Position numbers and translations under genes: made by a program. The notes beneath the pieces were generated by a model. It was not told where the DNA came from, did no database searches, and worked only from the letters and a program-made list of their open reading frames with translations. Of a DNA stretch of 37,121 nucleotides, positions 10,723-32,141 are shown one piece after another; position 1 is the first letter of the stretch; the number at the start of each line of letters is the position of its first letter. Source of the DNA: an uncultured Actinomycetes bacterium (GTDB lineage: Bacteria; Actinomycetota; Actinomycetes; Actinomycetales; Microbacteriaceae); assembly GCA_903920435.1 (NCBI GenBank), contig CAIXMB010000057.1, positions 1 to 37,121 on the forward strand, read 5' to 3'.

Positions 10723-10736
10723 ATCAATCGATTGTC
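10723..10736. promoter_or_regulatory. Island operator, CG-centred (MBL gene, distal site)
   Basis: ATCAATCGATTGTC is a 14-bp near-palindrome with a central CpG (core TCAATCGATTGT, one mismatch). It lies 67 bp centre to centre before the second site at 10790-10803 and belongs to the set of six similar sites in the window. The central CpG is the hallmark of LacI-family operators. Confidence 0.55.
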
Positions 10737-10789
10737 GAGGCTTTCATCTGGCTACGACAATGCCGAGAATAGCCTCACGCACACGGCAA

Positions 10790-10803
10790 GTCAATCCATT
10801 GAC
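10790..10803. promoter_or_regulatory. Island operator, CC-centred (MBL gene, proximal site)
   Basis: GTCAATCCATTGAC has perfect 6-bp arms around CC and is identical over all 14 bases to the site at 32128-32141. Its right arm supplies the TTGAC of the -35 element at 10799, so a bound repressor would block RNA polymerase. Confidence 0.7.
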
Positions 10804-10827
10804 CTTTGCAGACTGCCGATCTAGAGT
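10799..10827 (+). promoter_or_regulatory. Promoter of the MBL-fold gene
   Basis: TTGACC (10799-10804), 17 bp, TAGAGT (10822-10827), giving a start of transcription near 10834 and a ~32-nt leader. A second -10-like TAGGGT (10853-10858) lies 7 nt before the ATG and could give a leaderless transcript, but it has a poor -35. Confidence 0.65.
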
Positions 10828-10865
10828 CGACTCGAAGTACCGCGCGCGAGGATAGGGTCCACGTC

Positions 10866-11744
10866 ATGATCGCACTACCCGAACACCAGATCCCGGGCGT
10901 CTACCACCGCAAGATCGGCGACATCGTCGTCACCGCGATCAGCGACGGCTACCTGGTCATGGATCGCGTCATGACCCGCAACCTCCCCGACGGCGAGCTC
11001 ACCCCCGCCCTCTCCGCCCAGTTCCGCGACGAGCTGGTGTTCTCGGTGAACTCGTTCCTCATCCGCTCGAAGGACCGGGTCGCCCTCATCGACACCGGCT
11101 CGGGCGACTACCTCGGCCCGACCGCCGGGCATGTGGAGGCGAATCTCGCCGCCGCGGGCGTCTCCCCCGCGGAGGTCGACACCGTGCTGCTCACGCACAT
11201 GCACCCCGACCACTCCGCGGGCCTCACCGACATGGGCACGGGCGATCTCCGCTTCCCCAACGCCGAGCTCGTCGTGCACGAAGCCGAGCCGCGGCACTGG
11301 TTCGACGATGCGCAGATGGCGCGGGCATCCGACCTCTACAAGCACCTGCACTTCCGGATGACGCGTGAGCAGGTGACCCCCTACCTCGACCGCATGCGCA
11401 CCTTCCGCGAGGGCGAGGTGCTGCCCGGCGTAACGGCGGTGCCGCTGCCGGGCCACACGCCGGGACACACCGGCTACCTCGTGGAGTCGGGCGGGGAGGC
11501 GCTGCTCATCTGGGGCGACGTCATCCACATTCCCGAGGTGCAGTTCGCGCGCCCCGAGATCACGATGGTGCCCGACCTCGACCCCGACGCCGCGGTGGCG
11601 TCGCGCCGCCGCATCCTCGACATGGCGGCGCAGGACGGGCTGCTGGTGACCGGGATGCACCTGCACTACCCCGGCTTCGGCAACGTGTCCGTCGAGAACG
11701 GCGTCTTCCGCCACCACCCGGAGGCCTGGCGCCAGAAGTGGTGA
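10866..11744 (+). CDS. Metallo-beta-lactamase-fold hydrolase
   Basis: A 292-residue cytoplasmic MBL-fold enzyme with a binuclear zinc site. The HxHxDH motif is THMHPDHSAG, later ligands are PLPGHTPGH (His), IWGDVIH (Asp) and the final His in GMHLHYPG. This arrangement matches lactonase/thioesterase-like MBL proteins (AHL-lactonase or N-acyl hydrolase type); here a lactone or ester in the catabolic pathway is a reasonable but unproven substrate. There is no signal peptide. It is controlled by two island operators and a -35 element overlapping one of them, so it belongs to the island's regulon although transcribed toward the leftward block. Its stop codon directly abuts the stop of the convergent SDR gene. 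Confidence 0.87.
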   Translation: MIALPEHQIPGVYHRKIGDIVVTAISDGYLVMDRVMTRNLPDGELTPALSAQFRDELVFSVNSFLIRSKDRVALIDTGSGDYLGPTAGHVEANLAAAGVSPAEVDTVLLTHMHPDHSAGLTDMGTGDLRFPNAELVVHEAEPRHWFDDAQMARASDLYKHLHFRMTREQVTPYLDRMRTFREGEVLPGVTAVPLPGHTPGHTGYLVESGGEALLIWGDVIHIPEVQFARPEITMVPDLDPDAAVASRRRILDMAAQDGLLVTGMHLHYPGFGNVSVENGVFRHHPEAWRQKW

Positions 11745-12500
11745 CTAGGCGGGGTCGCTGACGTCCCAGACCTCGCCCGAGCCGAATCCCTCGAGCCGCG
11801 AGACGAGCACCTCCGCCGAGCGCTCCGGCGGCAGGAGTGTGCCCGAACGGTGGTTCTCGACGAACCTGCCGTGCAGCTCGCTGCCGATGACCGCCGGGTC
11901 CTGCTCCCGCACCCACTGCTGCATCGACGTGTCGACGACCCCGGGCCGGTAGACGTTCGCGGTGACCCCCGTGCCGTCGAGCTCCGTGGCCAGGGCGAGC
12001 ACGTGCGCCTCGAGCGCGGATTTCGTCGCGGCATAGACACCGCTGCCGACCGCGCGGCTCGGCGCGCTGACGATGCCGCTCGAGACGGCGACGACCCGGC
12101 CCCACCCGCGCTCGACCATGCCCGGCACGATCCGCCCCGCGAGCACGATCGGCGACACCGAGTTCAGTCGGAACGCGGCCTCGATCTCGGTCGCGGCGAG
12201 CGTCGCGGTGTTCCCCAGCGGCGCGACGGTCGCCGCATTGTTGATCAGCACGTCGACCGGGCCGAGCAGATCGGCCCACTCACCCACGGTGTCGGGCCGG
12301 GCCAGGTCGGCCGCGACCACCATGGCCTCGGCGCCCACCCGCCGCACATCGGAGGCCGCGTCGTCGAGCTGGGCGGCACTGCGTGCGACGAGCACGATGC
12401 GGGATGCCCCGCTGCGCGCCAGGGCGACCGCGATCGCGCGGCCCAGGCCGCGCCCCGCGCCCGTGACGACCGCCGTGCGACCCGCGAGCGTCGAGCTCAC
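11745..12500 (-). CDS. SDR-family oxidoreductase, last gene of the leftward block
   Basis: A 251-residue short-chain dehydrogenase. The cofactor motif TGAGRGLGRAI lies near the N-terminus, VLINNAA marks the fourth strand, and the catalytic triad is visible as VSSGI followed by VYAATKSA (Ser, Tyr, Lys). The GTG at 12500 is chosen because it overlaps the transketolase stop as GTGA. The substrate is unknown; its place after the transketolase subunits suggests it reduces or oxidises a keto sugar or hydroxyketone made or used by that enzyme. No terminator hairpin is visible, and the stop abuts that of the MBL gene. Confidence 0.88.
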   Translation of the reverse strand: MSSTLAGRTAVVTGAGRGLGRAIAVALARSGASRIVLVARSAAQLDDAASDVRRVGAEAMVVAADLARPDTVGEWADLLGPVDVLINNAATVAPLGNTATLAATEIEAAFRLNSVSPIVLAGRIVPGMVERGWGRVVAVSSGIVSAPSRAVGSGVYAATKSALEAHVLALATELDGTGVTANVYRPGVVDTSMQQWVREQDPAVIGSELHGRFVENHRSGTLLPPERSAEVLVSRLEGFGSGEVWDVSDPA

Positions 12501-13507
12501 GCCGAGGCGGAACCGGCGCCGGCGGTGGCGAGCGCGCCGCGCGCGAAAGCCTCGATCCGCGCCGCGAGGTGCTGGCCGGTCAGTCCGAAGGCCTCGAGCA
12601 GCTCCCGTGGCGAGCCGCTCTCGCCGTACCGGTCGTCGATGCCCAGTCGCAGCAGGCGCGTCGGCAGCTGCGCCGAGAGGAGCTCGGCGACGGCACCGCC
12701 GAAGCCGCCCGCGATCTGCGCCTCCTCGGCGGTCACCACGAGCCCCGTCTTGCGCGCGCTGGCCAGCAGGGTCTGCTCGTCGAGCGGCTTGATGGTCGGC
12801 ACGTGCACGACCTCCGCGTCGATGCCGAGCTGCTCGAGGAGGTCGGCGGCGACCACGAGCTCGTAGGTCATGGTGCCGGTGCCCGCGATGGTGACATCCG
12901 TTCCCTCGCGCAGCACGTAGGCGCGTCCGAGCTCGAAGGGCGTCTCGGGCAGGGTGAAGACCGGGGTCGCATCCCGCGTGAGGCGGAGGTAGGCGGGCGA
13001 GCCGCTCGCGGCGATCGCGAGGGTCGCCTTCTCGGCCTCGATGCTGTCGGCAGGTGCGACGACGGTCATGTTGGGCATCACGCGCATGAGGGCGATGTCC
13101 TCGAGCATCTGGTGGGTGGCACCGTCGGGGCCGACGTTCACGCCGGTGTGCGAGCCCACGACCTTGACGGGCATGTCGTTGAGGGCGGCCGTCGTCTTGA
13201 TCTGCTCCCAATTGCGTCCGGGGCTGAATGCGGCGTAGCTGGAGGTGAAGGGCACCTTGCCCGCGCGGGCCATGCCGCTCGCGACCGTGACGAGGTTCTG
13301 CTCGGCGATGCCGACCTCGACGAACCGCTTCGGGAACTCGTCGCGGAACATGTGCATCATGGTGCTCTCGGTGAGGTCGGCGCACAGGGCGACCACGCGC
13401 TCGTCACGACGGCCCGCTTCGAGCAGTCCACGGCCGAAGCCGGCCCGCATGGGCTCCTGCACCGGGGCGACGCCGTCGGCGCTGCGCTGGATCGGGTACT
13501 CGGTCAT
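12497..13507 (-). CDS. Split transketolase, C-terminal subunit (Pyr and C domains)
   Basis: A 336-residue protein that corresponds to the second half of a transketolase: the pyrimidine-binding domain with the essential Glu in VEVGIAEQNLV (E69), the segment VGSHTGVNVGPDGATHQMLED, and the C-terminal domain with TIKPLDEQTLL and EEAQIAGGFGGAVAELL. It needs the partner encoded just upstream to make an active ThDP enzyme that transfers two-carbon ketol units. The ATG overlaps the partner's stop as ATGA. Split transketolases of this size occur in catabolic operons for unusual sugars; what this one uses is not evident. Confidence 0.9.
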   Translation of the reverse strand: MTEYPIQRSADGVAPVQEPMRAGFGRGLLEAGRRDERVVALCADLTESTMMHMFRDEFPKRFVEVGIAEQNLVTVASGMARAGKVPFTSSYAAFSPGRNWEQIKTTAALNDMPVKVVGSHTGVNVGPDGATHQMLEDIALMRVMPNMTVVAPADSIEAEKATLAIAASGSPAYLRLTRDATPVFTLPETPFELGRAYVLREGTDVTIAGTGTMTYELVVAADLLEQLGIDAEVVHVPTIKPLDEQTLLASARKTGLVVTAEEAQIAGGFGGAVAELLSAQLPTRLLRLGIDDRYGESGSPRELLEAFGLTGQHLAARIEAFARGALATAGAGSASA

Positions 13508-14352
13508 GCTCCTGCTCCCTGTCGGATGCCCGCCACTGCCTGCGTCGCCTGCTCCGGTGTGGGCGGCTTGCCGTGCCAGCGGTAGTCGTACTCCATGAAC
13601 GGCACACCCTTGCCCGGCACCGTGTAGGCGAGGATGACGCTCGGCTTCTGCGCGACGGCCTTGGCCTGGTTGATCGCGCTCATGAGGCCGGCGACGTCAT
13701 GGCCGTCGACCTCGAGCACGTGCCATCCGAACGACTCCCACTTGGCGCGCAGGTCGTCGAGGGGCATGACGTCCTCGGTGAGGCCGTCGATCTGGATGTA
13801 GTTGCGATCGACGATGCCGATGAGCCTGCCGAGCTTGTACTTGCCCGCGAACATCGCGGCCTCCCAGATGTTGCCCTCGTTGAGCTCGCCGTCGCCCATG
13901 GCCACGTAGGTGAACCGGTGCAGCTCGTCGTCGATGTGCTGCAGGGCGTACGCGTAGCCGGCGGCCTGGGAGAGCCCGCTACCGAGCGGCCCGCTCGTGT
14001 TCTCGAGACCCGGCAGCGCCGTGCGCTCGGGATGCCCCTGCAGCCGCGAACCGTACTGCCGCAGGGTCAGCAGCTCCTCGACGGGGAAGTACCCGGAGTG
14101 GGCGAGGGTGGCATAGAGCACGGGAGCGGTGTGGCCGTTGCTCAGGAAGAAGACATCCCGCTCCGACCAGTCGGGGTCTGCGGGGTCGTGCTTCATGACG
14201 TTGAAGTAGAGGACGGTGAGGATCTCGGCCATCCCGAGCGGGCCCGCGCTGTGGCCGCTCTTGGCCGCAGCGAGCATCTCGAGGATGGAGATGCGCGTGC
14301 GGTCGGCCTGGGCTTTGAGCTCGGGCACGTCGAGTAGGGGTGCAGGATTCAT
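13504..14352 (-). CDS. Split transketolase, N-terminal ThDP-binding subunit
   Basis: A 282-residue protein equal to the PP domain of transketolase. The ThDP/Mg motif starts MGDGELNEGNIWEAA (GDG at 153-155) and closes with the Asn of IVDRNYIQIDG (N184). The active-site His region SGHSAGPLG lies at 32-40, and TSGPLGSGLSQAAGYAYA is present. It pairs with the next gene (ATGA overlap). The gene begins 35 nt after the LacI stop, with only a weak ribosome-binding site, so it is probably transcribed through from upstream. Its co-occurrence with acyl-CoA enzymes is unusual. Confidence 0.9.
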   Translation of the reverse strand: MNPAPLLDVPELKAQADRTRISILEMLAAAKSGHSAGPLGMAEILTVLYFNVMKHDPADPDWSERDVFFLSNGHTAPVLYATLAHSGYFPVEELLTLRQYGSRLQGHPERTALPGLENTSGPLGSGLSQAAGYAYALQHIDDELHRFTYVAMGDGELNEGNIWEAAMFAGKYKLGRLIGIVDRNYIQIDGLTEDVMPLDDLRAKWESFGWHVLEVDGHDVAGLMSAINQAKAVAQKPSVILAYTVPGKGVPFMEYDYRWHGKPPTPEQATQAVAGIRQGAGA

Positions 14353-14387
14353 GTCTACCGGTCCGTTCGGTGGGGTTTCGGGTGGAG

Positions 14388-15428
14388 CTAGGTGCGCGCC
14401 CGGCTCGTCGACTGGCGCTCGATCAGCTCGAGCGGCGCGTCGACCACGCGCTCGATGGCCTCGCTCGCGGTCTTCTCGGCGAGCAGCTGCACGGCCTGGC
14501 GCCCCATCTCCTGGATGGGCATCCGTACGACGGTGAGGGGCGGCGAGGCGTACTCGGCGAGATCGACATCGTGGATCGAGATCAGCGAGAGGTCGTTGGG
14601 CACGCTCACGTTCTCGGCGTAGGCGGCGCTCATCGCACCGAGCGCGGAGCTCACGTTCGCGGCGAGCACCGCCTTGGGCGGGTTCTCGAGCTGGAGCAGC
14701 GTGCGCATGGCGTGGTACCCACCGCGGGGCGTGTAGTCGGCGTGCGCCACGTACGACATGGGCACGGTCAGCCCGGCCTCCCTCATCGCCGAGGTGAAGC
14801 CGTCGAGACGGCGGCTCGAGGTGTCGAGGTCGCGGGGACCGGAGATGTACCCGATGCGGGTGTGGCCGAGTTCGACGAGGTGCCGCACGGCCTGCTGCGC
14901 GGCGGAGAAGTCGTCGAGGATGACGTACCGGTCGAGGCCGGGGATGCGGCCGTTGACCGAGAGCACCGGGGTGCCACTGCGCCGGAACAGGCGCACGAGC
15001 TCGTCGGCCTGTGCAGACCCGGCGACGAGGAGGCCGTCGATGGTGCCGTTGCCGAACAGGTCGGTGAACTGGGCGCCCTCGGCTCCGGTGCGGTCGGCGC
15101 TCACGGTGAGCAGCGCGAAGTTCATCGCGTGCGCGGCCTCCTGAGCGCCGTCGATGATGCCCGAGTACACGCTGTTGTGGAAGTCGGGAACGATGAGGCC
15201 GAACGCGTCGGCGCGCGATCGGCGCAGCGACCGGGCGGCGTAGTTCGGACGGTAGTCGAGCTGTGCCACGGCGCGCTGCACGCGCTCGCGCGTCTCGGCG
15301 CGCACCGAGAGTGAGGCGTCGCCGCTGAGCATCTTCGAGACCACCGCGACGTCGACGCCGGCCAGCTGGGCGACATCGCGCATGGTGACGCGGCGCGCCA
15401 CCGGCTCTGCAGATTCGCTGCTCGCCAT
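14388..15428 (-). CDS. LacI-family transcriptional regulator of the catabolic island
   Basis: A 346-residue repressor. The N-terminal helix-turn-helix is VTMRDVAQLAGVDVAVVSKM (14-33), followed by the hinge region NYAARSLRRSRADAFG, and then a periplasmic-binding-protein-like effector domain (FGLIVPDFHNSVYSGIIDG, then GYISGPRDLDTSSRR). The base-reading positions after AGV-D are Val-Ala, with Lys in place of the more usual Arg (VSK), which could explain an uncommon half-site. AAGGAGTAGCG before the ATG is a strong ribosome-binding site. It sits inside the leftward block, 48 nt after the thiolase-like gene, and is the best candidate to bind the six TCAA-N4-TTGA palindromes. No such palindrome lies directly before its own gene. 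The effector is unknown. Confidence 0.92.
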   Translation of the reverse strand: MASSESAEPVARRVTMRDVAQLAGVDVAVVSKMLSGDASLSVRAETRERVQRAVAQLDYRPNYAARSLRRSRADAFGLIVPDFHNSVYSGIIDGAQEAAHAMNFALLTVSADRTGAEGAQFTDLFGNGTIDGLLVAGSAQADELVRLFRRSGTPVLSVNGRIPGLDRYVILDDFSAAQQAVRHLVELGHTRIGYISGPRDLDTSSRRLDGFTSAMREAGLTVPMSYVAHADYTPRGGYHAMRTLLQLENPPKAVLAANVSSALGAMSAAYAENVSVPNDLSLISIHDVDLAEYASPPLTVVRMPIQEMGRQAVQLLAEKTASEAIERVVDAPLELIERQSTSRART

Positions 15429-15476
15429 CGCTACTCCTTGAGTTTCTGTCGTTGTCGATCGGGTGCTGAGTGGAGC

Positions 15477-16631
15477 CTAGAGGGTGCCGGCGCTGCCGAG
15501 TAGCGCCGTGGCCTGGGCCGAGAGAACTGCCCCGTTCGCCTGCACGAGAGCAACCTCCGCGCCCGCCACCTGACGGGCTCCGGTGCCTCCGCGAAGCTGG
15601 CGGACGGCCTCGACGAGCAGGAAGATGCCGTACATCCCCGGATGCGCGTACGAGAGCCCACCGCCGTTGGTGTTCACCGGGAGGGTGCCGCCCGGGGCGA
15701 TCCTGCCTTCGGAGACGAAGGCGCCGCCCTCACCCTTCGCGCAGAAGCCCAGGTCTTCCAGGAAGAGCGGGACGTTGATCGTGAAGGCGTCGTACAACTC
15801 GACGACGTCGACGTCGGCAACATCCAGCCCGGCCATCGCGAAGGCTCGAACGCCCGAGTCTAGCGCCGCGGTCGTCGTGAGCGACGGCATCTGGGAGATG
15901 CTCCGGTGCCAGTGCGCCTCGCCCACACCCAGCACCGGGATGAGGGGCTGACGCAGGTCACGGGCGCGCTCGGTCGTGGTGACGATGATCGCGCCGCCAC
16001 CGTCGGTCACGAGGCAGCAGTCCGCGACGGTGAGCGGGTCGCTGACCATGCGAGACGCGAGGACGTCGACGATAGTGAGGGGTTCCGTGCTGAACGCCCC
16101 GGGCGTGAGTCGGGCCCACTCGCGCGCGGCGACGGCGACCGACGCGAGCTGCTCGCGTGTCGTGCCGAACTCGTGCATGTGGCGCGCCGCGGCGAGGGCG
16201 TACATGGAGACCGGGTACCGCGGGCGGTAGGCGCTCTCGTACAGGTTGGGCGCCGATGCGGTCACGAGCTTCCCGCCGTCGGAGAGCTGCGTGCTGCCGT
16301 AGGCGATGAGCGCAGTCGTGCAGAGACCGGCACGGATCGCGGCGATGGCGTGCAGGAGGTGCGAGACGAACGAGGCGCCGCCCAGGTTGTTCGAGTCGGA
16401 GTAGCGGGGGCGGATGCCGAGGTACTCCGCGAGCTCGAGCCCCGACATCGCGTAGTGCGACGTGGCGCAGAAGATCCCGTCGACCTCGTGGATGCCGATG
16501 CCCGCGTCGTCCGCGGCGCGCAGTGCTGCCTGCCCCGCGAGGTCGAGACTCGTGAGGCCGTCGGCGACGCGGCCGAGGTCGGACTCGGCAGCCCCGACGA
16601 TCGAGATGACCCCGCGCGACGGGTCGCTCAT
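15477..16631 (-). CDS. Thiolase-like protein, possibly an Ltp2-type retro-aldolase
   Basis: A 384-residue thiolase-fold protein of the SCPx/Ltp2 branch. Where thiolases carry the nucleophilic Cys, it reads NNLGGASF (81-88) with no Cys. Two Tyr are found at positions matching the catalytic tyrosines known from the steroid aldolase Ltp2: Y280 in VELYDAFTI and Y328 in GGGLSYAHPG, 48 residues apart (50 in Ltp2). The C-terminal His of thiolases is kept (AHP, H330). The gene directly upstream codes for an OB-fold zinc-ribbon partner, coupled by ATGA, as expected for Ltp2-type or BbsAB-type complexes. It may therefore cleave a beta-hydroxyacyl-CoA by a retro-aldol reaction instead of thiolysis. That role is inference; ordinary thiolase activity cannot be fully excluded. 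Confidence 0.85.
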   Translation of the reverse strand: MSDPSRGVISIVGAAESDLGRVADGLTSLDLAGQAALRAADDAGIGIHEVDGIFCATSHYAMSGLELAEYLGIRPRYSDSNNLGGASFVSHLLHAIAAIRAGLCTTALIAYGSTQLSDGGKLVTASAPNLYESAYRPRYPVSMYALAAARHMHEFGTTREQLASVAVAAREWARLTPGAFSTEPLTIVDVLASRMVSDPLTVADCCLVTDGGGAIIVTTTERARDLRQPLIPVLGVGEAHWHRSISQMPSLTTTAALDSGVRAFAMAGLDVADVDVVELYDAFTINVPLFLEDLGFCAKGEGGAFVSEGRIAPGGTLPVNTNGGGLSYAHPGMYGIFLLVEAVRQLRGGTGARQVAGAEVALVQANGAVLSAQATALLGSAGTL

Positions 16632-17005
16632 GGCTGCTCCGTCCGTCGGAAGCTCAGCGTCTCCGCTGTGGTGCCCGGGGGTACCACCGCGACGACGCGG
16701 TCGCCGATCCGCGGGTCGCCCGCGATGTCGTCGCGCACCGTGCACATCATGCGGTAGCCCTCGTCCAGATCGATCAGTGCGACGTTGTAGTCACCGGAGC
16801 GCGAGCGGATGGTCGTCGTCGAGTACACGGTGCCGCTGCCCGCGCTCGTCTCCCAGGCCAGGTGCGCGCTGCCGCAGTGCGGGCATCCGACGCGCGGATA
16901 GAACACCGCCCGGCCGCACGAGCCGCACCGCTGGTAGCGAAGGCTGCCGGCGGCGAGGCCCTCGCCGTACACGGCCGCGGGTGATACCTCGAGGTTGCCG
17001 ATCAC
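16628..17005 (-). CDS. OB-fold zinc-ribbon protein (DUF35/ChsH2-C-like), partner of the thiolase-like protein
   Basis: A 125-residue protein with an N-terminal rubredoxin-like zinc ribbon, RCGSCGRAVFYPRVGCPHCG (CxxC-x10-CxxC), followed by an OB-fold domain (SGTVYSTTTIRSRSGDYNVA, then DRVVAVVPPG). Such proteins bind thiolases, HMG-CoA synthases or Ltp2 aldolases and channel acyl-CoA between active sites. The GTG at 17005 overlaps the CoA-transferase stop as GTGA, and the stop overlaps the thiolase-like ATG as ATGA, so expression of the two partners is coupled. Confidence 0.9.
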   Translation of the reverse strand: MIGNLEVSPAAVYGEGLAAGSLRYQRCGSCGRAVFYPRVGCPHCGSAHLAWETSAGSGTVYSTTTIRSRSGDYNVALIDLDEGYRMMCTVRDDIAGDPRIGDRVVAVVPPGTTAETLSFRRTEQP

Positions 17006-18186
17006 GCGACGACCCCCCGGGCGCGCAGGCTCGCCCGCTGCGACGCGTCGCGCCCGAGGCTCTCGAGAATGGCGTCGGTGTGCTCGCCGAGCGCGGGGAT
17101 GGGCTCCATGGCCGGCGTGTAGGCCGAGCTCACGACGGGGGGAAGCGTCGCATCGATGTCTCCGACGGGCGAGCCGACGGTCGTCCACCGGTTGCGCTCG
17201 ACGAGCTGCGGGTGCGCGACCACTGCGGCGAGGTCGTTGACAAGCCCGTTGGGGATGCTCGCGGCGTCGAGCCGCGCGCAGAGCTCCTCGGCCGTCATGG
17301 TGCTGGTCTGCGCCGCGATCAGCCCATCGACGAACTCGCGGTTGTCGCAGCGCGCGATGTTGGTCGCGGTGCGCGGGTCGTCGATGAGTTCGGGCATCCG
17401 GATCACGTGCCGTGCGAAATCGCGCCAGCCCCTGTCGTTCTGGATGCCGATGAGCACGGGCGTGCCGTCGGCGGTCGGGTACGAGTCGTACGGGGTGACC
17501 GTGGGGTGGGCGAGGCCGGACCTCGGGGGTGGGGAGCCGTGGTAGATCTGCCGGTAGAGGGGGTACCCCATCCACTCGACCATTGCGTCGAACAGGCTGA
17601 CCTGGATGAATTCGCCGACCCCGGTGCGCTGACGCAGGAGGACCGCGGCGAGGATGCCCTGGAACAGGTAGGTGCCCGCGGCGATGTCGGCGATCGGGAT
17701 GCCCGACTTGGCGGGCGCGTCGGGCGAGCCGGTGATGGAGACGAAGCCGGCCTCGGCCTGCACGAGCAGGTCGTACGCCTTGCGGTTGCTCATCGGCCCC
17801 TGCTTGCCGTAGCCGGTGAGCTCGGCCACGATCAGCGAGGGTGTGCGCTCACGCACGGCATCCGCGCCGAAGCCCAGCCTCTCGACGGCGCCGGGCCCGA
17901 GGTTGTGCAGGAAGACGTCGGCGCCCGCGATGAGGTCGCTCAGCACCGCCTTGCCCTCCGGGTCGGCCAGGTCGAGGGCGATCGACTGCTTCCCGCGGTT
18001 CAGCCACGCGAAGTGCGTCGCGAGTCCGCCGCGGATCGAGGCGTCGTACTGCCGGGCGAAGTCGCCACCGTCGGTGCGCTCCACCTTGATGACCTCGGCG
18101 CCCAGGTCGGCGAGGTGCCGGGTCGCGAACGGCACGGCGACCGCCTGCTCGAGCGCGATGACACGGAGTCCGTCGAGCGGCCTCAT
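17002..18186 (-). CDS. CaiB/BaiF-type (family III) CoA transferase
   Basis: A 394-residue enzyme that would move CoA from one acyl-CoA to a free carboxylic acid. Family motifs are VIALEQAVAVPFATRHLADL and LGAEVIKVERTDGGDFARQ at the N-terminus, the WLNRGKQSIALDL segment, and the catalytic Asp in RKAYDLLVQAEAG (D139). Length and layout are normal. It sits between the zinc dehydrogenase and the OB-fold gene with ATGA and GTGA overlaps. In this block it is the likely CoA-activating step before MaoC hydration and C-C cleavage. The donor and acceptor acids are unknown. Confidence 0.93.
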   Translation of the reverse strand: MRPLDGLRVIALEQAVAVPFATRHLADLGAEVIKVERTDGGDFARQYDASIRGGLATHFAWLNRGKQSIALDLADPEGKAVLSDLIAGADVFLHNLGPGAVERLGFGADAVRERTPSLIVAELTGYGKQGPMSNRKAYDLLVQAEAGFVSITGSPDAPAKSGIPIADIAAGTYLFQGILAAVLLRQRTGVGEFIQVSLFDAMVEWMGYPLYRQIYHGSPPPRSGLAHPTVTPYDSYPTADGTPVLIGIQNDRGWRDFARHVIRMPELIDDPRTATNIARCDNREFVDGLIAAQTSTMTAEELCARLDAASIPNGLVNDLAAVVAHPQLVERNRWTTVGSPVGDIDATLPPVVSSAYTPAMEPIPALGEHTDAILESLGRDASQRASLRARGVVA

Positions 18187-23051: not shown

Positions 23052-23065
23052 ATCAATCCTTTGAT
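23052..23065. promoter_or_regulatory. Island operator, CC-centred (rightward block)
   Basis: ATCAATCCTTTGAT is a near-palindrome (TCAAtCCtTTGA) resembling the two GTCAATCCATTGAC sites. Its right arm overlaps the -35 element at 23061. Confidence 0.6.
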
Positions 23066-23088
23066 TTCTTTCCGGAGTGGTCTACGCT
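23061..23088 (+). promoter_or_regulatory. Promoter of the rightward transport/monooxygenase block
   Basis: TTGATT (23061-23066), 16 bp, TACGCT (23083-23088). Transcription would start near 23095, leaving a leader of about 88 nt before the leader peptide and 138 nt before the permease. Confidence 0.5.
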
Positions 23089-23182
23089 CAAACCAAATCC
23101 GACCGTCCCCGGTGGCTCGCTGAAGCGCCGCGATCAGATCCTGCAAGGTTAGACATGCCCTGCACGATCAGGGAGATGTGAA

Positions 23183-23236
23183 ATGTGTGAACTTCTTGGC
23201 AGCGTCGACAACGCGGGATCCTCGGTGATCTCATGA
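23183..23236 (+). CDS. Leader peptide translationally coupled to the ABC permease
   Basis: A 17-residue open frame, MCELLGSVDNAGSSVIS, has a strong ribosome-binding site (GGGAG, 7 nt before the ATG), whereas the permease ATG has only a weak one. Its stop codon overlaps the permease start as ATGA, the same coupling seen between most genes of the island. The peptide has no signal or membrane segment and no run of one amino acid, so it does not look like a classical amino-acid attenuator. The likely role is to load ribosomes onto the permease start; a regulatory role, or no role beyond coupling, are both possible. Confidence 0.5.
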   Translation: MCELLGSVDNAGSSVIS

Positions 23237-25014: not shown

Positions 25015-25067
25015 CTCCGCTCGCTACCGACATCACGAACAACGACAACCAACTGGAAGGCACTCTC

Positions 25068-26201
25068 ATGGCTTCGGACACCCAGGCGGACACCACCCCG
25101 ATGGTGAAGGTGGATGACCTCGTCAAGCACTTCAAGCGCTCCGACGGTGCGACGGTCACGGCCGTAGACGGAGTCTCGATCGAGGTGATGCCGGGCGAGT
25201 TCACCGTGCTTCTCGGCCCGAGCGGTTGCGGCAAGACCACGCTGCTGCGCTGCGTCGCCGGACTCGAGCGACCGATCGGCGGTCGCATCCAGATCCGCGG
25301 GCGCACCGTCTTCGACGGCGACAAGAAGGTCAACCTCGCCCCGGAGCACCGCGGCCTCAACATGATCTTCCAGTCCTACGCGCTGTGGCCGCACATGACG
25401 GCCGCCCAGAATGTCGCCTACCCGCTCAGCGCGCAGAAGGTTGACAAGAAGGACATCCCGGCGCGCGTGGCGAGAGCCCTCGAGATGGTCGGCATCCCCG
25501 AGCTCGGCAAGCAGTACCCGAGCCAGATGAGCGGCGGCCAGCAGCAGCGCGTCGCGCTCGCCCGCGCACTCGTCTCCAACAGCGACCTCGTGCTGTTCGA
25601 CGAGCCCCTGTCGAACGTCGACGCGAAGGTGCGCGAGCAACTGCGCTTCGAGCTGCTCTCGATGCAGCGCGACCTCGGGTTCGCCGCACTGTACGTGACG
25701 CACGACCAGACCGAGGCGATGGAGCTCGCCAACACGATCGCGGTGCTCGAGCGCGGCAAGGTCGCCCAGCTGGGCACGCCGCAGGAAATCTACCGCGAGC
25801 CGCGCTCGCGCTACGTCGGCGGCTTCATCGGCACGCTCAACGAGATCGAGGGCACCGTGCAGAGCGTCGACAAGGGCGGCGCGGCCACGGTCACGACCGC
25901 CGTGGGCACCCTCACGGCGGCGAGCATCGCACCCGAGGTGAAGGCGGGCGACCGCGTCGTCGTGGTGTCGCGCCCCGAGCGCGTCGAGCTCGCGACCAAG
26001 GAGCCCACGCTCCCCAACCGCTGGAAGGTGACCGTCGAGACGAGCGTGTTCAGCGGCTCGCGCACCGAGCACGTCACGTCGTTCGACGGCAACCCCGACT
26101 TCCGGGTGTGGCGCTCCGACATGGAGCTCTTCCACACGGGGACCCCGGCGTGGGTCGGCCTCGCGAGCCAGGACCTGCGTGTCCTGCCCTTCGGCGCCTA
26201 G
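25068..26201 (+). CDS. ABC transporter ATP-binding protein
   Basis: A 377-residue ATPase. Walker A is GPSGCGKT (50-57), the Q-loop is IFQSYALWPH, the signature is MSGGQQQRVALARAL, Walker B is LVLFDEPLSNVDA and the H-loop is YVTHDQTEAM. The C-terminal ~100 residues form a TOBE-like domain (IEGTVQSVDKGGAATV, VSRPERVELA). The ATG at 25068 is chosen because GGAAGG lies 7 nt upstream; an ATG at 25011 overlaps the permease stop (ATGA) and would add 19 polar residues. It powers the permease encoded just before; the binding protein is encoded 6 kb downstream. Confidence 0.93.
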   Translation: MASDTQADTTPMVKVDDLVKHFKRSDGATVTAVDGVSIEVMPGEFTVLLGPSGCGKTTLLRCVAGLERPIGGRIQIRGRTVFDGDKKVNLAPEHRGLNMIFQSYALWPHMTAAQNVAYPLSAQKVDKKDIPARVARALEMVGIPELGKQYPSQMSGGQQQRVALARALVSNSDLVLFDEPLSNVDAKVREQLRFELLSMQRDLGFAALYVTHDQTEAMELANTIAVLERGKVAQLGTPQEIYREPRSRYVGGFIGTLNEIEGTVQSVDKGGAATVTTAVGTLTAASIAPEVKAGDRVVVVSRPERVELATKEPTLPNRWKVTVETSVFSGSRTEHVTSFDGNPDFRVWRSDMELFHTGTPAWVGLASQDLRVLPFGA

Positions 26202-26213
26202 GAGGTACTGACG

Positions 26214-27563
26214 ATGACACTGGCGCAGACCATGGGCACGTTCGTGTCCGGACTCAGCCTCGATACCGTTCCCGCGACCGTGCTCGACAGCGCCCGCGAC
26301 CGGTTCCTCGATGCCATCAGCACCGCCGTGGCGGGCCGCGACATGCCCGTGACCAAGGCCATCGCGGCCTCGATCGCGGCGGGCGACGGCACGGGGGCCT
26401 GCACGCTGCTCACCGGCGGCACCGCAGGAGCGCAGGACGCCTCCCTCCTCAACGGCACGGCGATCCACGCCCTCCTCTTCGAGGACTACTTCCCCGTCAG
26501 CGGCGACCACCCCGGCGCCGCGGTCGTTCCGGCCGCGCTGGCGGCGGTCGAGAGCGGGGCACGGATGCGCGGCCGCGCCGGCACGGTGGGCGACGTGCTC
26601 GTGGCCGTCGTCGCGGGCTACGAGATCCAGGTGCGCCTCGGACTCATGACGGGAAAGCGCATCTGGAACCGCAACTTCCGCACGACGCCCGTGCTCGGCG
26701 CCGTTGCGGCGAGCGCGGCGGCAGCGAACGCGTTCGGCCTCGACTCCGACCGCACCGCCGCGGCCCTCTCGATGGGCGCCAACATGGCAAGCGGGTTCCT
26801 CGAGGCGTTCGCGCACGGCACGATGGAGCCCTACATCCACGGCGGAATCGCCGCGCGCAACGGAATCGTCGCCGGGTGGATGGGGTACGGCGGCGTGGAC
26901 ACCGCTCCCCCGACGTTCGAGGGCGGTGCCGGCTACTTCGCCGTCTTCGGTGACGGCGAGTTGGCGCGCGCCGACTTCTCCGAGGAGTGGGGCATCCCCA
27001 CTGTCATCGCGAAGACCTACCCGGCCTCGGGCGGCAAGACCAACATGCTCGACAGCGCGGTCGCCCTCCACGAGCAGGGCATCGACGTCGCCGACATCGT
27101 GAGCGTGCTCGTGCGCGAGCCGAGCGAAGTGCACAGCTTCCCCGGCTCCGACAACAAGGGTCCGTTCCACAACATGTACGAGGTGCAGGACAGCACGCAG
27201 TTCCTCGTCGCCGCGTCGCTGCTGGGACGCCCGATGCGGTCTCTCGCGACCATGCAGAACTTCGCCGACGCCGAGGTCGCCGCGCTCGCGCAGCGCATCG
27301 AGTCAGTGGGCGAGGACGGTCGATACTCGAGCGGCTCGGCCCTGGCCACCATCGAGGTCACCCTTCGCGACGGCACGACCGTCGTGAGCGAGATCAACAA
27401 CCCCGCGGCCCACGTGCCCACCGTCGAGCGGATGGCGGACAAGCTCCGCACCCTCGTGGAGGGCGCCTGGTCGCACGAGAAGACGGAGCGCGTCATCGAC
27501 CTTGTCGCCGGCGACCCGGCACGGCCCGTGGAGGAGCTCTCCTCCGCGATCCAGGGCTCCTGA
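26214..27563 (+). CDS. MmgE/PrpD-family protein
   Basis: A 449-residue protein of the family that includes 2-methylcitrate dehydratase, cis-aconitate decarboxylase and iminodisuccinate epimerase. It shows the conserved N-terminal DRFLDAISTAVAGRD, the active-site-region stretch NGTAIHALLFEDYFPVSGDH (most members have HxxDFDD here, so the D-rich site is altered to LLFEDY), and KTYPASGGKTNMLDSAVAL in the lid domain. It starts after a perfect GGAGGT. The reaction is probably dehydration, isomerisation or decarboxylation of a poly-carboxylate. Its role in the pathway is unknown. Confidence 0.88.
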   Translation: MTLAQTMGTFVSGLSLDTVPATVLDSARDRFLDAISTAVAGRDMPVTKAIAASIAAGDGTGACTLLTGGTAGAQDASLLNGTAIHALLFEDYFPVSGDHPGAAVVPAALAAVESGARMRGRAGTVGDVLVAVVAGYEIQVRLGLMTGKRIWNRNFRTTPVLGAVAASAAAANAFGLDSDRTAAALSMGANMASGFLEAFAHGTMEPYIHGGIAARNGIVAGWMGYGGVDTAPPTFEGGAGYFAVFGDGELARADFSEEWGIPTVIAKTYPASGGKTNMLDSAVALHEQGIDVADIVSVLVREPSEVHSFPGSDNKGPFHNMYEVQDSTQFLVAASLLGRPMRSLATMQNFADAEVAALAQRIESVGEDGRYSSGSALATIEVTLRDGTTVVSEINNPAAHVPTVERMADKLRTLVEGAWSHEKTERVIDLVAGDPARPVEELSSAIQGS

Positions 27564-27607
27564 CCGCACGACAACACACGCAGAACGCAGAACGAGGAGA
27601 TGGACGA

Positions 27608-28810
27608 ATGACGAACCCCGCCAAAGGATCGGACAGTGCTGCCGCCGACGCGGCCCGGCACTTCCGCCAGACCTTGGGGCACTACCCGACGGGAGTGGCC
27701 ATCATCACGGCCACTGTCGACGACCGCCCGGTGGGAATGGTCGTCGGGTCGTTCACGTCCGTCTCCCTCGACCCGCCGCTTGTCGCCTTCTTCGCCGACA
27801 ACGGGTCGGAGACCTGGGCGACCCTGAAGCGCTCCGGTTCGTTCTGCGCCAACGTGCTCAGCAGCCCGCAGGAGGCCCTGAGCCGCCAATTCGTCAAGCG
27901 CGGCACCGACCGCTTCGCCGACATCGCGTGGGCACCAGCCCCCTCGGGCTCGCCCATCCTCGACAGCGTCGTGGCATGGGTTGACTGCGACATCGTGTCG
28001 GTCACCGAATACGGCGACCACCAGATGGTGGTCGGCCGGGTGCGCGACCTGGCCGCCAACGACCCCGTGCCACCGCTCATCTTCCACCGCGGCGGCTACG
28101 GCGAGTTCAACCAGCGCTCCCTCATCTCGGCACCGGAGCGCGACCTCGTCGACGCCCTCAAGCTCGTGGACATCTCCCGGGGCATCCTCGACCGCCTCAG
28201 TGCCGACCTGCACCTCGAGTGCACCGTCACCGCGGCGATCGGCAGCAACTCGGTGGTGCTGGCACGCATCTTCCCGGAATTCACGGATGCCGTCGGCTCG
28301 CCCGTCGGCTACCGCGTGCCCCTCGCTCCCCCGCTCGGACCCGCCCTCATGGCATGGGCCACCCAGGAGGAGCTCGACGCCTGGTTCGCGCGCTCGCCCG
28401 TGCGCCTGACCGACGAGGCGAAGGGCCAGTACCTCGAGCTCCTCGCCCGCCTGCGTGAGGACGGGTGGGCCTGGTTCTCGAAAGACACCGACTTCCAGCG
28501 CATTCAGACCCTTCTCGACACCGCGGCGATGGAGGGGCGCCCGAAGGAGGAGGTGCACCGCGACGCGCAGCGGATCGTCGGCGAGCCGGGCTTCCGGTTC
28601 ATGCCCGACCCGCTCGACCCCGGAACGCGCCACGAGCTGTACAGCGTCGTCGCCCCGGTCGTGCTCCCCGACCGCGACACGGTCATCGGCATCAACGTCA
28701 TCGGCGGCGGCAAGGTGTTCACCGCCGAGCAGATCGCCGCGATCGGCGAGCGTCTGCGCAACGCGGCCGCGTCGGTCGCGCAACTGGGCAGCATGAGGGC
28801 CGCGTCATGA
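27608..28810 (+). CDS. Flavin reductase fused to an IclR-type effector-binding domain
   Basis: A 400-residue two-domain protein. Residues ~15-170 are an FMN reductase of the RutF/HpaC type (HYPTGVAIITATVDDRPVGM, GSFTSVSLDPPLVAFF, FCANVLSS). Residues ~190-395 match the effector domain of IclR regulators (LHLECTVTAAIGSNSVVLAR, YRVPLAPPLGPALMAWATQE, LLARLREDGWAWFS), but there is no helix-turn-helix in between. It should supply FMNH2 to the LLM monooxygenases encoded right after it (ATGA overlap). The IclR domain may sense the substrate and gate NADH use, as the C-terminal MarR-like domain does in the p-hydroxyphenylacetate hydroxylase reductase C1. This is inference. GAGGAGATGG precedes the start. 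Confidence 0.9.
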   Translation: MTNPAKGSDSAAADAARHFRQTLGHYPTGVAIITATVDDRPVGMVVGSFTSVSLDPPLVAFFADNGSETWATLKRSGSFCANVLSSPQEALSRQFVKRGTDRFADIAWAPAPSGSPILDSVVAWVDCDIVSVTEYGDHQMVVGRVRDLAANDPVPPLIFHRGGYGEFNQRSLISAPERDLVDALKLVDISRGILDRLSADLHLECTVTAAIGSNSVVLARIFPEFTDAVGSPVGYRVPLAPPLGPALMAWATQEELDAWFARSPVRLTDEAKGQYLELLARLREDGWAWFSKDTDFQRIQTLLDTAAMEGRPKEEVHRDAQRIVGEPGFRFMPDPLDPGTRHELYSVVAPVVLPDRDTVIGINVIGGGKVFTAEQIAAIGERLRNAAASVAQLGSMRAAS

Positions 28811-30138
28811 CCGATGCGCCGCGCCAGATGAATCTCGCGCTCTACAACGCGCCGAGCGGCATCAGTATCGGCTCGTGGCGGCGCGAGAACAGCACCTCAG
28901 ACGAGCTGCTCGGGCTCGACCTCATCACGCGCACCGCCCAGCAGTGCGAGCGGGCGGGCATTGACGCTCTGTTCCTCGCGGACAACGTCTCGACCGGCCC
29001 CGACGACTACCGCCAGGCCCTCAACTACCCCCTGGAGCCCATGGTCGTGCTGGCGGCGGTGGCGGCCAACACGACCCGCATCGGCCTCGTCGCCACCGGT
29101 TCCACGACGTTCATCGAGCCGTACAACCTGGCGAGGTTCATGGCGACCCTCGATCACATCAGCAAGGGCCGCGCCGGGTGGAACATCGTCACCTCGGTGT
29201 CGGGCGCGCACAACTTCACGATGGAGATGCCCTCCCACGCCGAGCGCTACCGCCAGGCCGAGGAGTACATGCAGGTCGTGACGCAGCTGTGGGACAGCTG
29301 GGACGACGACGCGATCGTTCAGGACAGGGAATCCGGTGTCTGGGCAGACACCGACAAGATCCACCGCATCGATTTCGCGGGCGAGTTCCACCAGGTGCAG
29401 GGTCCGCTCAACATCGCCCGCTCGCCCCAGGGCCGGCCGGTGTTCGCGCAGGCCGGGTCATCGCCGGCAGGCATGGGCTTCGCCACCCGGTGGGCCGATC
29501 TCGTGTTCACACCGCAGCCCACGGTCGAGGGTGCACGGGAGTTCTACGCCGCGCTGAAGAAGCAGATCGCCGACGCGGGGCGCGACCCCGGCACCGTGCG
29601 TATCCTGCCGGGCTTCGTGCCGATCATCGCCGACACCGAGACCGAGGCGAAGAAGCTCGCGGCCGAGCTGCTCGACCTCATCGACTTCGAGGCCGGGCGC
29701 GCAGACCTCCAGCGCTTCATGGCGCCCGTGGAGGTCGGCGATCTGGAGCTCGACGAGCCCATCCCCGCCGAGCGCCTCATCCACCCCGACCAGGTGGAGA
29801 CCGGGCGCACGAAGTACAAGCAGCTCTACGAGCTCGCGCTGGGGGGCGCGACGTTGCGGGACCTCGTGCGCGTCAAGTCGAGCCTCAGCGACCACGCGAG
29901 CATCGTCGGCACCGCCGAGCAGGCCGCCGACCTCATGGAGACGTACTTCACCCAGGGCGGCGCCGACGGCTTCATGATCGTGCCGCCGTACATGATGGGC
30001 GGCCTCGACGCCATCACCGAGCAGCTCGTACCCGTGCTCAAGCAGCGCGGGCTGTTCCGCCAGGACTACGAGGGCACCACGTTGCGCGACCACCTCGGGC
30101 TCGAGCGCCCGGGAACCACCACGAAGGGCAAGGCATGA
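28807..30138 (+). CDS. LLM-class FMN-dependent monooxygenase (NtaA/SnaA/DszA type), copy 1
   Basis: A 443-residue TIM-barrel enzyme that uses FMNH2 from the adjacent reductase. Family landmarks are ERAGIDALFLADN, GLVATGSTTFIEPYNLARFM, KGRAGWNIVTS, ERYRQAEEYMQVVTQLWDSW, and RSPQGRPVFAQAGSS. The group includes monooxygenases for nitrilotriacetate, EDTA, pristinamycin and dibenzothiophene sulfone, i.e. C-N, C-S or Baeyer-Villiger type oxidations. It is the first of two tandem paralogues, starting at the reductase stop (ATGA). The substrate is unknown. Confidence 0.93.
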   Translation: MTDAPRQMNLALYNAPSGISIGSWRRENSTSDELLGLDLITRTAQQCERAGIDALFLADNVSTGPDDYRQALNYPLEPMVVLAAVAANTTRIGLVATGSTTFIEPYNLARFMATLDHISKGRAGWNIVTSVSGAHNFTMEMPSHAERYRQAEEYMQVVTQLWDSWDDDAIVQDRESGVWADTDKIHRIDFAGEFHQVQGPLNIARSPQGRPVFAQAGSSPAGMGFATRWADLVFTPQPTVEGAREFYAALKKQIADAGRDPGTVRILPGFVPIIADTETEAKKLAAELLDLIDFEAGRADLQRFMAPVEVGDLELDEPIPAERLIHPDQVETGRTKYKQLYELALGGATLRDLVRVKSSLSDHASIVGTAEQAADLMETYFTQGGADGFMIVPPYMMGGLDAITEQLVPVLKQRGLFRQDYEGTTLRDHLGLERPGTTTKGKA

Positions 30139-31454
30139 CTACCGCACCGCGCCAGATGAACCTCGCGCTCTACAACGCGTCGAGCGGCATCAGCGTCGGC
30201 GCGTGGCGGCGCCCCGACAGCACCTCCGACGAGCTGCTGGGGCTCGACCTCATGGCGCGGATCGCCCAGCAGTGCGAGCGCGCGTGCATGGACGCGTTCT
30301 TCCTCGCCGACAACGTCTCGCCGTCGCCCACGGACTACCGCCAGGCGCCCAACTACCCGCTCGAGCCGATGACCGTGCTCGGCGCCCTCTCGGCGCTGAC
30401 CACCAAGATCGGGCTCATCGCGACCGGATCGACGTCGTACATCTCGCCGTACAACCTCGCGCGCTACATGGCCACCATCGACCACCTGAGCAAGGGCCGC
30501 GCGGGCTGGAACATCGTGACGTCGTACACGGGCAACCAGAACTTCTCGACGACCCTCACGGAGCACGACGAGCGCTACCGCCAGGCCGACGAGTACCTGC
30601 GCGTCGTCACGCAGTTGTGGGACAGCTGGCGCGATGATGCAATCGTCCAGGACCGGGCGACGGGGATGTGGGCCGACCCCTCCCGGGTGAGCCGCATCGA
30701 CTTCGAGGGCGACTACTACCGCGTCGCGGGGCCGCTCAACATCCCGCGCTCGCCCCAGGGCTGGCCGGTGTTCGCCCAGGCCGGGTCGTCGGCGGCGGGC
30801 ATCGGCTTCGCCACGGCGTGGGCCGATCTCGTCTTCACGCCGCAGACGAACCTCGAGAGCGCGCAGGGCTTCTACTCCGACCTCAAGAAGCGGGTCGCCG
30901 ATGCGGGTCGCGATCCCGACGCGGTGCGCGTGCTGCCGGCGTTCGTGCCGATCATCGCGGACACCGAGACGGAGGCCAAGAAGATCAAGGCGAGCCTGCT
31001 CGACCTCATCGACTACGAAGCAGGCCGCGCCGAACTCCAGCGGTTCATCCAGCCCGTCCAGATCGGCGACCTCGAACTCGACGAGCCCATTCCCGCGGAG
31101 CGCCTCGTGCACCCCGACCAGATCGAGGGCGCGCAGACCCGGTACAAGCAGTCGTACGACCTGGCCGCAACCGGGGCGTCACTGCGCGAGATGATCCGCG
31201 TTCGCGCGACCGCGACCGATCACGCGAGCGTCGTGGGGACCGCCGAGCAGGCCGCCGACCTCATGGAGTCGTTCTTCACCCGGGGCGGCGCGGATGGCTT
31301 CATGTTCATGGCCTCGTACATGATGGGCGGCCTCGACGGCATCACCGACCGACTCATCCCCGTACTCCAGGAGCGCGGGCTGTTCCGCACCGAGTACACC
31401 GAGTCGACCCTGCGCGGGCACCTCGGCCTCGAGCGCCCCGCGGGCCGCTCGTGA
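30135..31454 (+). CDS. LLM-class FMN-dependent monooxygenase, copy 2
   Basis: A 439-residue paralogue of the gene before it, about 70% identical by eye (not computed). The cofactor and barrel motifs are the same (YNLARYMATIDHLSKGRAGW, RSPQGWPVFAQAGSS), but likely substrate-lining stretches differ: SYTGNQNFSTTLTEHDE against SVSGAHNFTMEMPSHAE, and ERACMDAFFLADN against ERAGIDALFLADN. It overlaps its neighbour by ATGA and the next gene by GTGA. The two copies may act on successive intermediates, on stereoisomers, or form a heteromer. Confidence 0.93.
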   Translation: MTTAPRQMNLALYNASSGISVGAWRRPDSTSDELLGLDLMARIAQQCERACMDAFFLADNVSPSPTDYRQAPNYPLEPMTVLGALSALTTKIGLIATGSTSYISPYNLARYMATIDHLSKGRAGWNIVTSYTGNQNFSTTLTEHDERYRQADEYLRVVTQLWDSWRDDAIVQDRATGMWADPSRVSRIDFEGDYYRVAGPLNIPRSPQGWPVFAQAGSSAAGIGFATAWADLVFTPQTNLESAQGFYSDLKKRVADAGRDPDAVRVLPAFVPIIADTETEAKKIKASLLDLIDYEAGRAELQRFIQPVQIGDLELDEPIPAERLVHPDQIEGAQTRYKQSYDLAATGASLREMIRVRATATDHASVVGTAEQAADLMESFFTRGGADGFMFMASYMMGGLDGITDRLIPVLQERGLFRTEYTESTLRGHLGLERPAGRS

Positions 31455-32020
31455 GGAACGCCGTCATCCTGCACTGGCTGACGTACGAGCACGAGTACTA
31501 CAGCGACGAGTACCCCGCGGGCAGCGATGCCAACTGGCTGCCCTGGTTGCAGAAGCGGCTCATGATGAACGACATCAAGGCCGATACTCCCGAGGTCACG
31601 CGCCCGTTCGACTTCGACTACGCGTCGTGGGTGCGCGAGATCGAGCGCTACGACATCACCTCGCAGACCACGCTCGTGGGCCTGAGCATGGGCAGCGGGT
31701 TCTGGGTGCGCTACCTGAGCGAGCATCCCGAGATCGAGGTCGACAGGGTCTTCCTCGTGGCGCCGTGGCTCAACGTGCACGGTGAGGAGGCGACCGACTT
31801 CTTCGAGTTCGAGATCGACCCGGGAGTCGTCGCGCGAGCTCGCAACGGCGTCACGATCTTCACCTCGGACAACGACCGGTTCGAGTCGCTCGACTCCGTC
31901 GCGCTGCTGCGCGAGAAGTTGCCGGATGCCGCGGTGAGGGTGTTCCCGGGCTACGGGCACTTCGCGCTGAAGGATCTGGGCACCGAAGCGTTCCCCGAGC
32001 TGCTCGAGGCGATCCTCTGA
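31451..32020 (+). CDS. Alpha/beta hydrolase, RBBP9/YdeN-like
   Basis: A 189-residue small serine hydrolase. The nucleophile motif is GLSMGSG (S79), followed by VFLVAPWLNVHG, the acid region TSDNDRFESLDSV, and the catalytic His in GYGHFALKD. Size and layout fit the RBBP9/YdeN family. Directly after two monooxygenases, it could open a lactone or ester made by Baeyer-Villiger-type oxidation; this is inference. The GTG start overlaps the monooxygenase stop as GTGA. The first residues are unusually rich in aromatic and acidic residues (YEHEYYSDEY). Confidence 0.85.
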   Translation: MRNAVILHWLTYEHEYYSDEYPAGSDANWLPWLQKRLMMNDIKADTPEVTRPFDFDYASWVREIERYDITSQTTLVGLSMGSGFWVRYLSEHPEIEVDRVFLVAPWLNVHGEEATDFFEFEIDPGVVARARNGVTIFTSDNDRFESLDSVALLREKLPDAAVRVFPGYGHFALKDLGTEAFPELLEAIL

Positions 32021-32038
32021 TGCTCAAGTCAACAACCA

Positions 32039-32052
32039 GTCAAACGGTTGAA
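32039..32052. promoter_or_regulatory. Island operator, CG-centred (binding-protein gene, distal site)
   Basis: GTCAAACGGTTGAA shares the 12-bp core TCAAACGGTTGA with the site at 22930-22941. It begins 19 bp after the hydrolase stop and is 89 bp, centre to centre, before the second site. Confidence 0.65.
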
Positions 32053-32127
32053 TCCGTCGTGCTGGGCCGAGTTTACCGCCTGATTACTGGGCATGCAGGT
32101 GTTTTGGGCAAGTTTGATCATGTCACG

Positions 32128-32141
32128 GTCAATCCATTGAC
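32128..32141. promoter_or_regulatory. Island operator, CC-centred (binding-protein gene, proximal site)
   Basis: GTCAATCCATTGAC is a perfect 6-2-6 palindrome identical to 10790-10803. Its right arm forms the TTGAC of the -35 element of the next promoter. Confidence 0.72.

Follow-up and report, generated by a model that had tools for sequence, protein, structure and literature searches.

Paired palindromes as predicted operators of a LacI-family regulator across an actinomycete catabolic island

The 37,121-nucleotide stretch analyzed here (the window; contig CAIXMB010000057.1 of assembly GCA_903920435.1, from an uncultured member of the Microbacteriaceae) carries ~23 kb of catabolic genes of unassigned purpose, and the question it raises is whether these genes share one control and, if so, which protein exerts it. 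The initial annotation had pointed to 14-bp palindromes in three intergenic regions of this island, had read the adjoining genes as one regulon, and had named the LacI-family regulator encoded at 14388-15428 as the natural candidate to bind them. We find that six such sites are very probably operators of this LacI-family repressor, encoded in the island itself, which would switch the island genes as one unit.

Within the window, TCAANNNNTTGA is matched exactly at five positions (10791, 22930, 23053, 32040 and 32129); 100 dinucleotide shuffles of the window gave a mean of 0.05 and at most 1. The sixth site, at 10724 (TCAATCGATTGT), carries one mismatch to TCAA-N4-TTGA, so that the claim of six palindromes with TCAA...TTGA ends is exact for five of them; their placement in three intergenic regions stands, all six being confined to the gaps at 10636-10865, 22920-23232 and 32021-32230. 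Spacing is even in all six, and the centre is CG in three, as had been noted, and CC in the other three. Both reported repeats were recovered, GTCAATCCATTGAC being identical over 14 bases at 10790 and 32128 and TCAAACGGTTGA occurring twice. Further one-mismatch matches in the island (14193, 23681, 24812, 25123 and 34049) lie inside predicted coding sequences, so the reported absence of sites from the island's other gaps also stands. Across the organism's own assembly (3,164,108 bases in 204 contigs, 96% complete), TCAANNNNTTGA was found at the same five places, all in the island, with no further exact match, and a control pattern, TCAANNNNTTGA reversed, matched 10 times. With up to one mismatch allowed, RTCAAWCSNTTGAY recovers all six sites and seven other places; the latter match on one strand only, and one of them (9708) is in the window, inside a predicted gene. 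Exact matches to RTCAAWCSNTTGAY in this genome number three, every one an island site. A chance origin of the sites was rejected on the basis of the shuffles and the own-genome scan.

Upstream of the gene for a metallo-beta-lactamase-fold, lactonase-like protein (the MBL gene) stand an MBL-distal predicted operator, ATCAATCGATTGTC (10723-10736; CG centre, the site with the mismatch), and an MBL-proximal one, GTCAATCCATTGAC (10790-10803; CC centre), 67 bp from each other. The right half of the proximal site lies within the -35 box TTGACC of a predicted MBL promoter (TTGACC-17-TAGAGT, 10799-10827, plus strand; 9/12 consensus), which was returned by both our spacing scan and an independent scan. 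In the second gap, the 12-mer of the predicted operator ATCAAACGGTTGAG (22929-22942; CG centre) lies 10 bp before the start codon of an enolase-superfamily gene, an offset that is equal in G035, a genome of another genus with a counterpart of the island. Its partner at 123 bp, ATCAATCCTTTGAT (23052-23065; CC centre), lies upstream of a permease gene, has a 12-mer identical in G035, and is joined by a predicted permease promoter (TTGATT-16-TACGCT, 23061-23088, plus strand) that the spacing scan found and the stricter independent scan missed. The third pair, ahead of a binding-protein gene, consists of the predicted operators GTCAAACGGTTGAA (32039-32052; CG centre) and, 89 bp off, GTCAATCCATTGAC (32128-32141; CC centre), the right half of which falls within the -35 box TTGACT of a predicted promoter (TTGACT-17-TATCTT, 32137-32165, plus strand; 9/12 consensus; both scans). 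As a separate observation, the MBL-proximal palindrome also has a promoter-like TTGACT-17-TATTCT on the minus strand (10766-10794), directed towards a tRNA-Lys gene at 10562-10635, perhaps by chance.

G035 is the sole genome with an 80% identical LacI protein among 149 relatives, and no second close LacI was found in a 398-genome sample of the family, where the next is 42% identical. It holds most of the island, with enzymes and transporter mostly 65-85% identical and lower values for the flavin reductase pieces (down to 58%), the binding protein (32-53%) and the neighbour of the binding protein (51%). Gene order is altered, the oxygenase genes lying behind the binding-protein gene, and no close match to the transketolase halves, the hydrolase or the third short-chain dehydrogenase/reductase (SDR) was present in the 60 kb of G035 examined. 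Five exact sites and one near-exact site nonetheless stand ahead of the same three gene sets: TCAATCCGTTGA and TCAATCGGTTGT, the latter with one mismatch, at the MBL gene; TCAATCGGTTGA and TCAATCCTTTGA in the enolase-permease gap; and TCAATCGTTTGA and TCAATCCATTGA at the binding-protein gene. The half-sites are conserved between the window and G035, and much of the intervening DNA has changed. The motif has thus been kept at the same three promoter regions despite rearrangement, which bears out the expectation of conservation in relatives. Every region, in either genome, pairs a CC-centred site with a CG-centred one, and on the sense strand of the downstream gene the six CC-centred sites all read TCAATCC. 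The surroundings of the regulator gene also differ: in the window, a split transketolase and an SDR-like gene (11745-14352) separate lacI from the MBL gene, and in G035 lacI and the MBL gene are tail to tail, ~55 bp apart. In G035, the 60 kb surrounding the island yielded no tRNA, which leaves the tRNA next to the island in the window without support as a shared boundary.

The candidate binder at 14388-15428 (minus strand) has the architecture of the LacI/GalR family, with an N-terminal LacI helix-turn-helix (HTH; ..AGVDVAVVSKMLSG..; PF00356, E 1.5e-13, residues 15-62) and a C-terminal Peripla_BP domain (PF13377, E 4.6e-39, residues 181-341), and is predicted to bind all six operators. Domain scans returned no DNA-binding regulator domain in the other island proteins covered (Pfam was run on part of the genes). 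Its gene sits in the minus-strand run behind the 22930 operator, that is, within a run that the regulator would control. The sites lie upstream of neighbouring catabolic operons, the regulator's own included if that run is one transcript, which is the layout of a local regulon.

To see whether such sites accompany related regulators, we used a homologue set of all 26 genomes with a homologue at E<=1e-64 plus three weaker ones, 29 in total. LacI homologues with nearby sites are 38-51% identical, and some belong to other families. The strict pattern TCAAWCGWTTGA gave 29 sites in 20 of the 29 genomes, and 25 of the 29 sites lie within 12.3 kb of a LacI homologue, a limit chosen post hoc and fixed by G035; 19 of the 26 genomes in the E<=1e-64 set have a near site. 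No site of the organism's own genome fits this strict pattern: each has a CC centre, a GG end or the mismatch. For TCAANSSNTTGA, counted within 8.5 kb of the LacI gene in stretches not selected by motif, 19 occurrences were observed in 21 genomes versus 0.35 expected from single-base composition (present in 14/21); the genomes omitted from the 26 were G006, G011, G015 and G026, of the window's genus, and G000, the genome of the window itself. Restricted to a single genome per genus, the count was 14 versus 0.19 (in 9/14), and in other families 7 versus 0.05 (in 6/7). These numbers supersede a looser half-site count (26 versus 0.42 in the 21 genomes and 12 versus 0.06 in other families), in which the stretches of four genomes had been shifted to include known sites and 40 kb had been used for G035. 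When all 256 half-sites were compared, TCAA came first by fold in all three sets (54-fold in the 21 genomes). Several loci without an exact site (G175, G410, G069, G199 and G354) have one-mismatch sites. The co-location of TCAAWCGWTTGA and the excess of TCAA near homologues back the island LacI as the candidate binder, as far as site distribution can indicate. A tie of the motif to the enolase-superfamily gene instead of LacI was considered and rejected: four actinobacterial loci (L036-L039) with a 39-49% homologue of that gene have neither a LacI match nor a site in the DNA examined, two of them being short pieces of 5 and 11 kb. In Arthrobacter, Kribbia and Rhodococcoides, homologues of the enolase-superfamily gene stand without LacI and, in the DNA examined, without the motif.

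In a midpoint-rooted tree, with labels set by hand and the motif label covering rows with one-mismatch sites only as well as G548, the window LacI groups with G035 and seven proteins from other families (support 80/89, which is not strong). All nine have sites, provided that the one of G548, 10.9 kb away, is included. Of the 21 proteins in a second group, which lies inside the window's family, 18 carry the site label, several of them only on account of a one-mismatch site.

From the sites, their conservation, their co-location with the LacI group and the -35/-10 geometry at the three window promoters, all of them direct readings of sequence, we infer binding, repression over activation, a role for the partner sites, single transcripts and an effector, as follows. 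The ligand-free repressor would occupy the six sites. At the MBL, permease-run and binding-protein promoters, the CC-centred operator would cover the -35 hexamer and keep RNA polymerase off; since an occupied -35 box should exclude the polymerase, repression is the natural reading. The CG-centred partner, 67-123 bp off, would add occupancy or form a loop, and partner sites may act via looping or local concentration. The operator 10 bp before the first start codon would block the enolase-headed run including lacI, giving negative autoregulation. The repressor would be released when its periplasmic-binding-protein-like domain binds a substrate or intermediate of the pathway, upon which the uptake, oxidation, CoA-dependent and lactonase-type genes would be induced together. 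Exclusivity of the exact sites to the island in its own genome, conservation in G035 and co-location with the LacI group all argue for the proposal that these genes form one regulon.

The promoter geometry bears on which of the sites would do this work. The spacing scan covered 109 oriented sites in 22 stretches, with one-mismatch sites included and A or T required before the centre. Taking the operator right half as a -35 box, TAnnnT follows at 16, 17 and 18 bp in 1, 11 and 4 cases (16 in all, three same-genus promoters among them being near copies), against 5 cases altogether at the 28 remaining spacings in the range 5 to 35. In the window, the -35 box is carried by the CC-centred sites and not by the CG-centred ones. 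Taking the window and G035 islands together, a -10-like hexamer stands towards the gene, 16-18 bp on, at 5 of 6 CC-centred sites, and at none of the 6 CG-centred sites in either direction. This could mean that only CC-centred sites are operators, one per unit, the CG-centred ones being remnants or belonging to another regulator. We consider this unlikely, given that both site types are present in all three regions of both islands and that the strict search near distant homologues finds the CG-centred form, although the TCAAWCGWTTGA search itself asked for CG.

It is also conceivable that there is one regulon whose binder is a regulator encoded outside the window, with lacI a mere passenger of its gene run. 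The own-genome scan reveals the motif and not its binder, at least one further LacI-family gene is present in the assembly (on C56), and the 12-mer is also present in family genomes that lack this LacI. On the other hand, the sites track the LacI group in 19 of 26 genomes, across several families and otherwise differing clusters, and CG-centred even palindromes are the norm for the LacI family in a published catalogue (PMC4052901), which makes an outside binder quite improbable. That the palindromes are -35 boxes with chance symmetry and no repressor is scarcely credible and was rejected: the right halves of three sites are indeed TTGA at promoter spacing, but no -10 follows at that spacing for the other three sites of the window, the TCAA halves are conserved in G035, and the palindrome is 54-fold over-represented near the LacI group.

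Several observations weigh against operator pairs bound by the island LacI as we describe them. Three window sites have CC centres, and the order of CC- and CG-centred sites at the MBL gene is reversed between the window and G035. The G035 MBL operator has no -10 at 16-18 spacing; the 16 fitting -10 boxes come without exception from the window's family, with none in the seven other-family loci; in several of the 16 cases the operator half is TTGC, and one case is the backward one at 10791. The co-location counts are not independent because 10 of the 29 genomes are of the window's genus, and four of the 29 TCAAWCGWTTGA sites are not near the homologue (G065:C4, G020:C2 and two at G747:C19). G020 has a homologue and no site within 10 kb of it even with one mismatch. 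By p-value, TCAA ranks fifth, fourth and fifth of 256 in the three sets, behind GC-rich half-sites with a 3- to 10-fold excess, or up to about 12-fold over the three sets, which we put down to coding structure. No sites were found around three less related LacI genes, which means little because only 0.05 were expected. In the family census, the strict 12-mer occurs in 10 of 16 genomes with a homologue versus 55 of 382 without (Fisher p 2.5e-5); it is linked to LacI yet not diagnostic alone, and strict TCAAWCGWTTGA was dropped as a regulon marker for being too loose. Among 30 loci from this census, a LacI of this group lies within 1.5 kb in one (G052) and distant LacI proteins in two, and G372 and G380, also among the 30, have their own LacI farther off. 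Lastly, the two motif-bearing tree groups are parted by motif-less rows, most of which were examined only within 1.5 kb.

Comparison with known systems places the predicted regulon among LacI-family local repressors. According to PMC7419226, SacR1 of Lactobacillus plantarum is a LacI-family repressor of fructooligosaccharide genes that binds a promoter region containing GTCAAACGATTGAC by electrophoretic mobility shift assay and chromatin immunoprecipitation; mutation of one site weakened binding (a result mentioned there without its data), and alteration of both abolished it. Its predicted site AATGTCAAACGATTGACATA has the same GTCAA..TTGAC palindrome, and the operator type has a precedent in SacR1. 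Unlike the island, SacR1 belongs to Firmicutes and a phosphotransferase-system sugar cluster, and the second site of its promoter is dissimilar; the comparison is one of sites. In the catalogue of local LacI-family regulons by Ravcheev et al. 2014 (PMC4052901), most operators are even palindromes, and those of 1173 of the 1303 regulators are CG-centred. Several sites accompany about 20% of the operons under such control, and nearly 90% of the regulators act on sugar pathways. Even palindromes, several sites per region, neighbouring catabolic operons and frequent autoregulation are shared with those regulons, whereas the CC centre of three of the six island sites and pair distances of 67-123 bp, against catalogue peaks at 13, 22 and 32, are not.

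Solved-structure matches of the regulator are CcpA- and PurR-type (CcpA best, E 8e-46), with the same two-domain architecture of HTH and periplasmic-binding-protein-like domain. Operators of this type have G at half-site position -6. The island operators have T there. In the dominant TVSR group, according to Camas et al. 2010 (PMC2978694), arginine at helix position 20 pairs with G at half-site position -6. The island protein falls outside that group, defined by TVSR at helix positions 17-20 and G at -6: its recognition helix is VVSK, as in G035, and site-bearing homologues have VISR, VVSR, LVSR, AVSR or AASR. With such helices and T at -6, the TVSR code does not cover these proteins. Among the papers searched, no description of this regulon turned up.

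We read this as a new, predicted regulon of a well-known type, in which the operator half-site is a little unusual and the pathway perhaps not one for sugars. More tentatively, we suggest that these regulators make up a subfamily of actinomycete LacI proteins not described before, in which a recognition helix other than TVSR goes with the half-site TCAA[A/T]C; it would control varied catabolic clusters rich in enolase-superfamily, lyase, CoA-transferase and lactonase-type enzymes in place of ordinary sugar pathways, with a ligand that is maybe a sugar acid, lactone or other acid; the window's branch would use operator pairs, a CC-centred site on the -35 box and a CG-centred anchor. Enzymes at the homologue loci include amidohydrolase/lactonase-type, enolase-superfamily, RraA-type aldolase, MaoC, CoA-transferase, lyase and thiamine-diphosphate enzymes, some loci also having sugar-type ABC transporters, an array that hints at acids, lactones or sugar acids both for the substrates and for the effectors. 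Assigning the island's genes to a single predicted regulon, for which both the regulator and the operators are specified, makes the island's substrate findable: whichever ligand frees LacI from the six sites is expected to be that substrate or an early intermediate. Actinomycete LacI proteins that fall outside the TVSR group, for which a recognition code has been published, also gain a predicted pairing of regulator with operator. Away from the island, a tandem pair of exact sites (L121:9958-10016, on G747:C19) directly precedes a reading frame of 1112 residues that weakly matches GH95; the 20 kb examined showed no LacI homologue, and the pair is a possible distant target of G747's LacI.

The genes themselves fall into an MBL gene and three blocks. 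The MBL gene (10866-11744, plus strand; start set by eye) has AidB as its best NCBIfam match, below the cut-off of that model, and a G035 counterpart that is 74% identical. The left run, probably a single transcript (11745-22919, minus strand, read from 22919 to 11745), encodes in order an enolase-superfamily/muconate cycloisomerase-like protein, an ASL-superfamily lyase, MaoC, an SDR, an alcohol dehydrogenase, a CoA-transferase III, a ChsH2-like OB protein, a thiolase, LacI, the N and C halves of a transketolase and the SDR-like protein, whose gene at 11745 was called by eye and from a 31% match to another SDR. The right run (23233-32020, plus strand) encodes the ABC permease, an ATPase, MmgE/PrpD, a flavin reductase with an IclR_C domain, two NtaA/DmoA-type monooxygenases and a serine hydrolase. 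The third block (32231-34907, plus strand) consists of the binding-protein gene (32231-33286), a gene without a Pfam match (33370-34071) and an SDR gene (~34071-34907), the first two having counterparts in G035. The enzyme families point to an acid, lactone or aromatic as pathway substrate. The flavin reductase at 27602-28810 carries its IclR C-terminal domain as a fusion; the scan detected no DNA-binding domain in it, and G035 has a counterpart. The product of 33370-34071 is a 233-residue protein, 51% identical in G035, whose gene adjoins the binding-protein gene in both, and the NtaA/DmoA-type monooxygenase gene pair (28807-31454) is in tandem both here and in G035.

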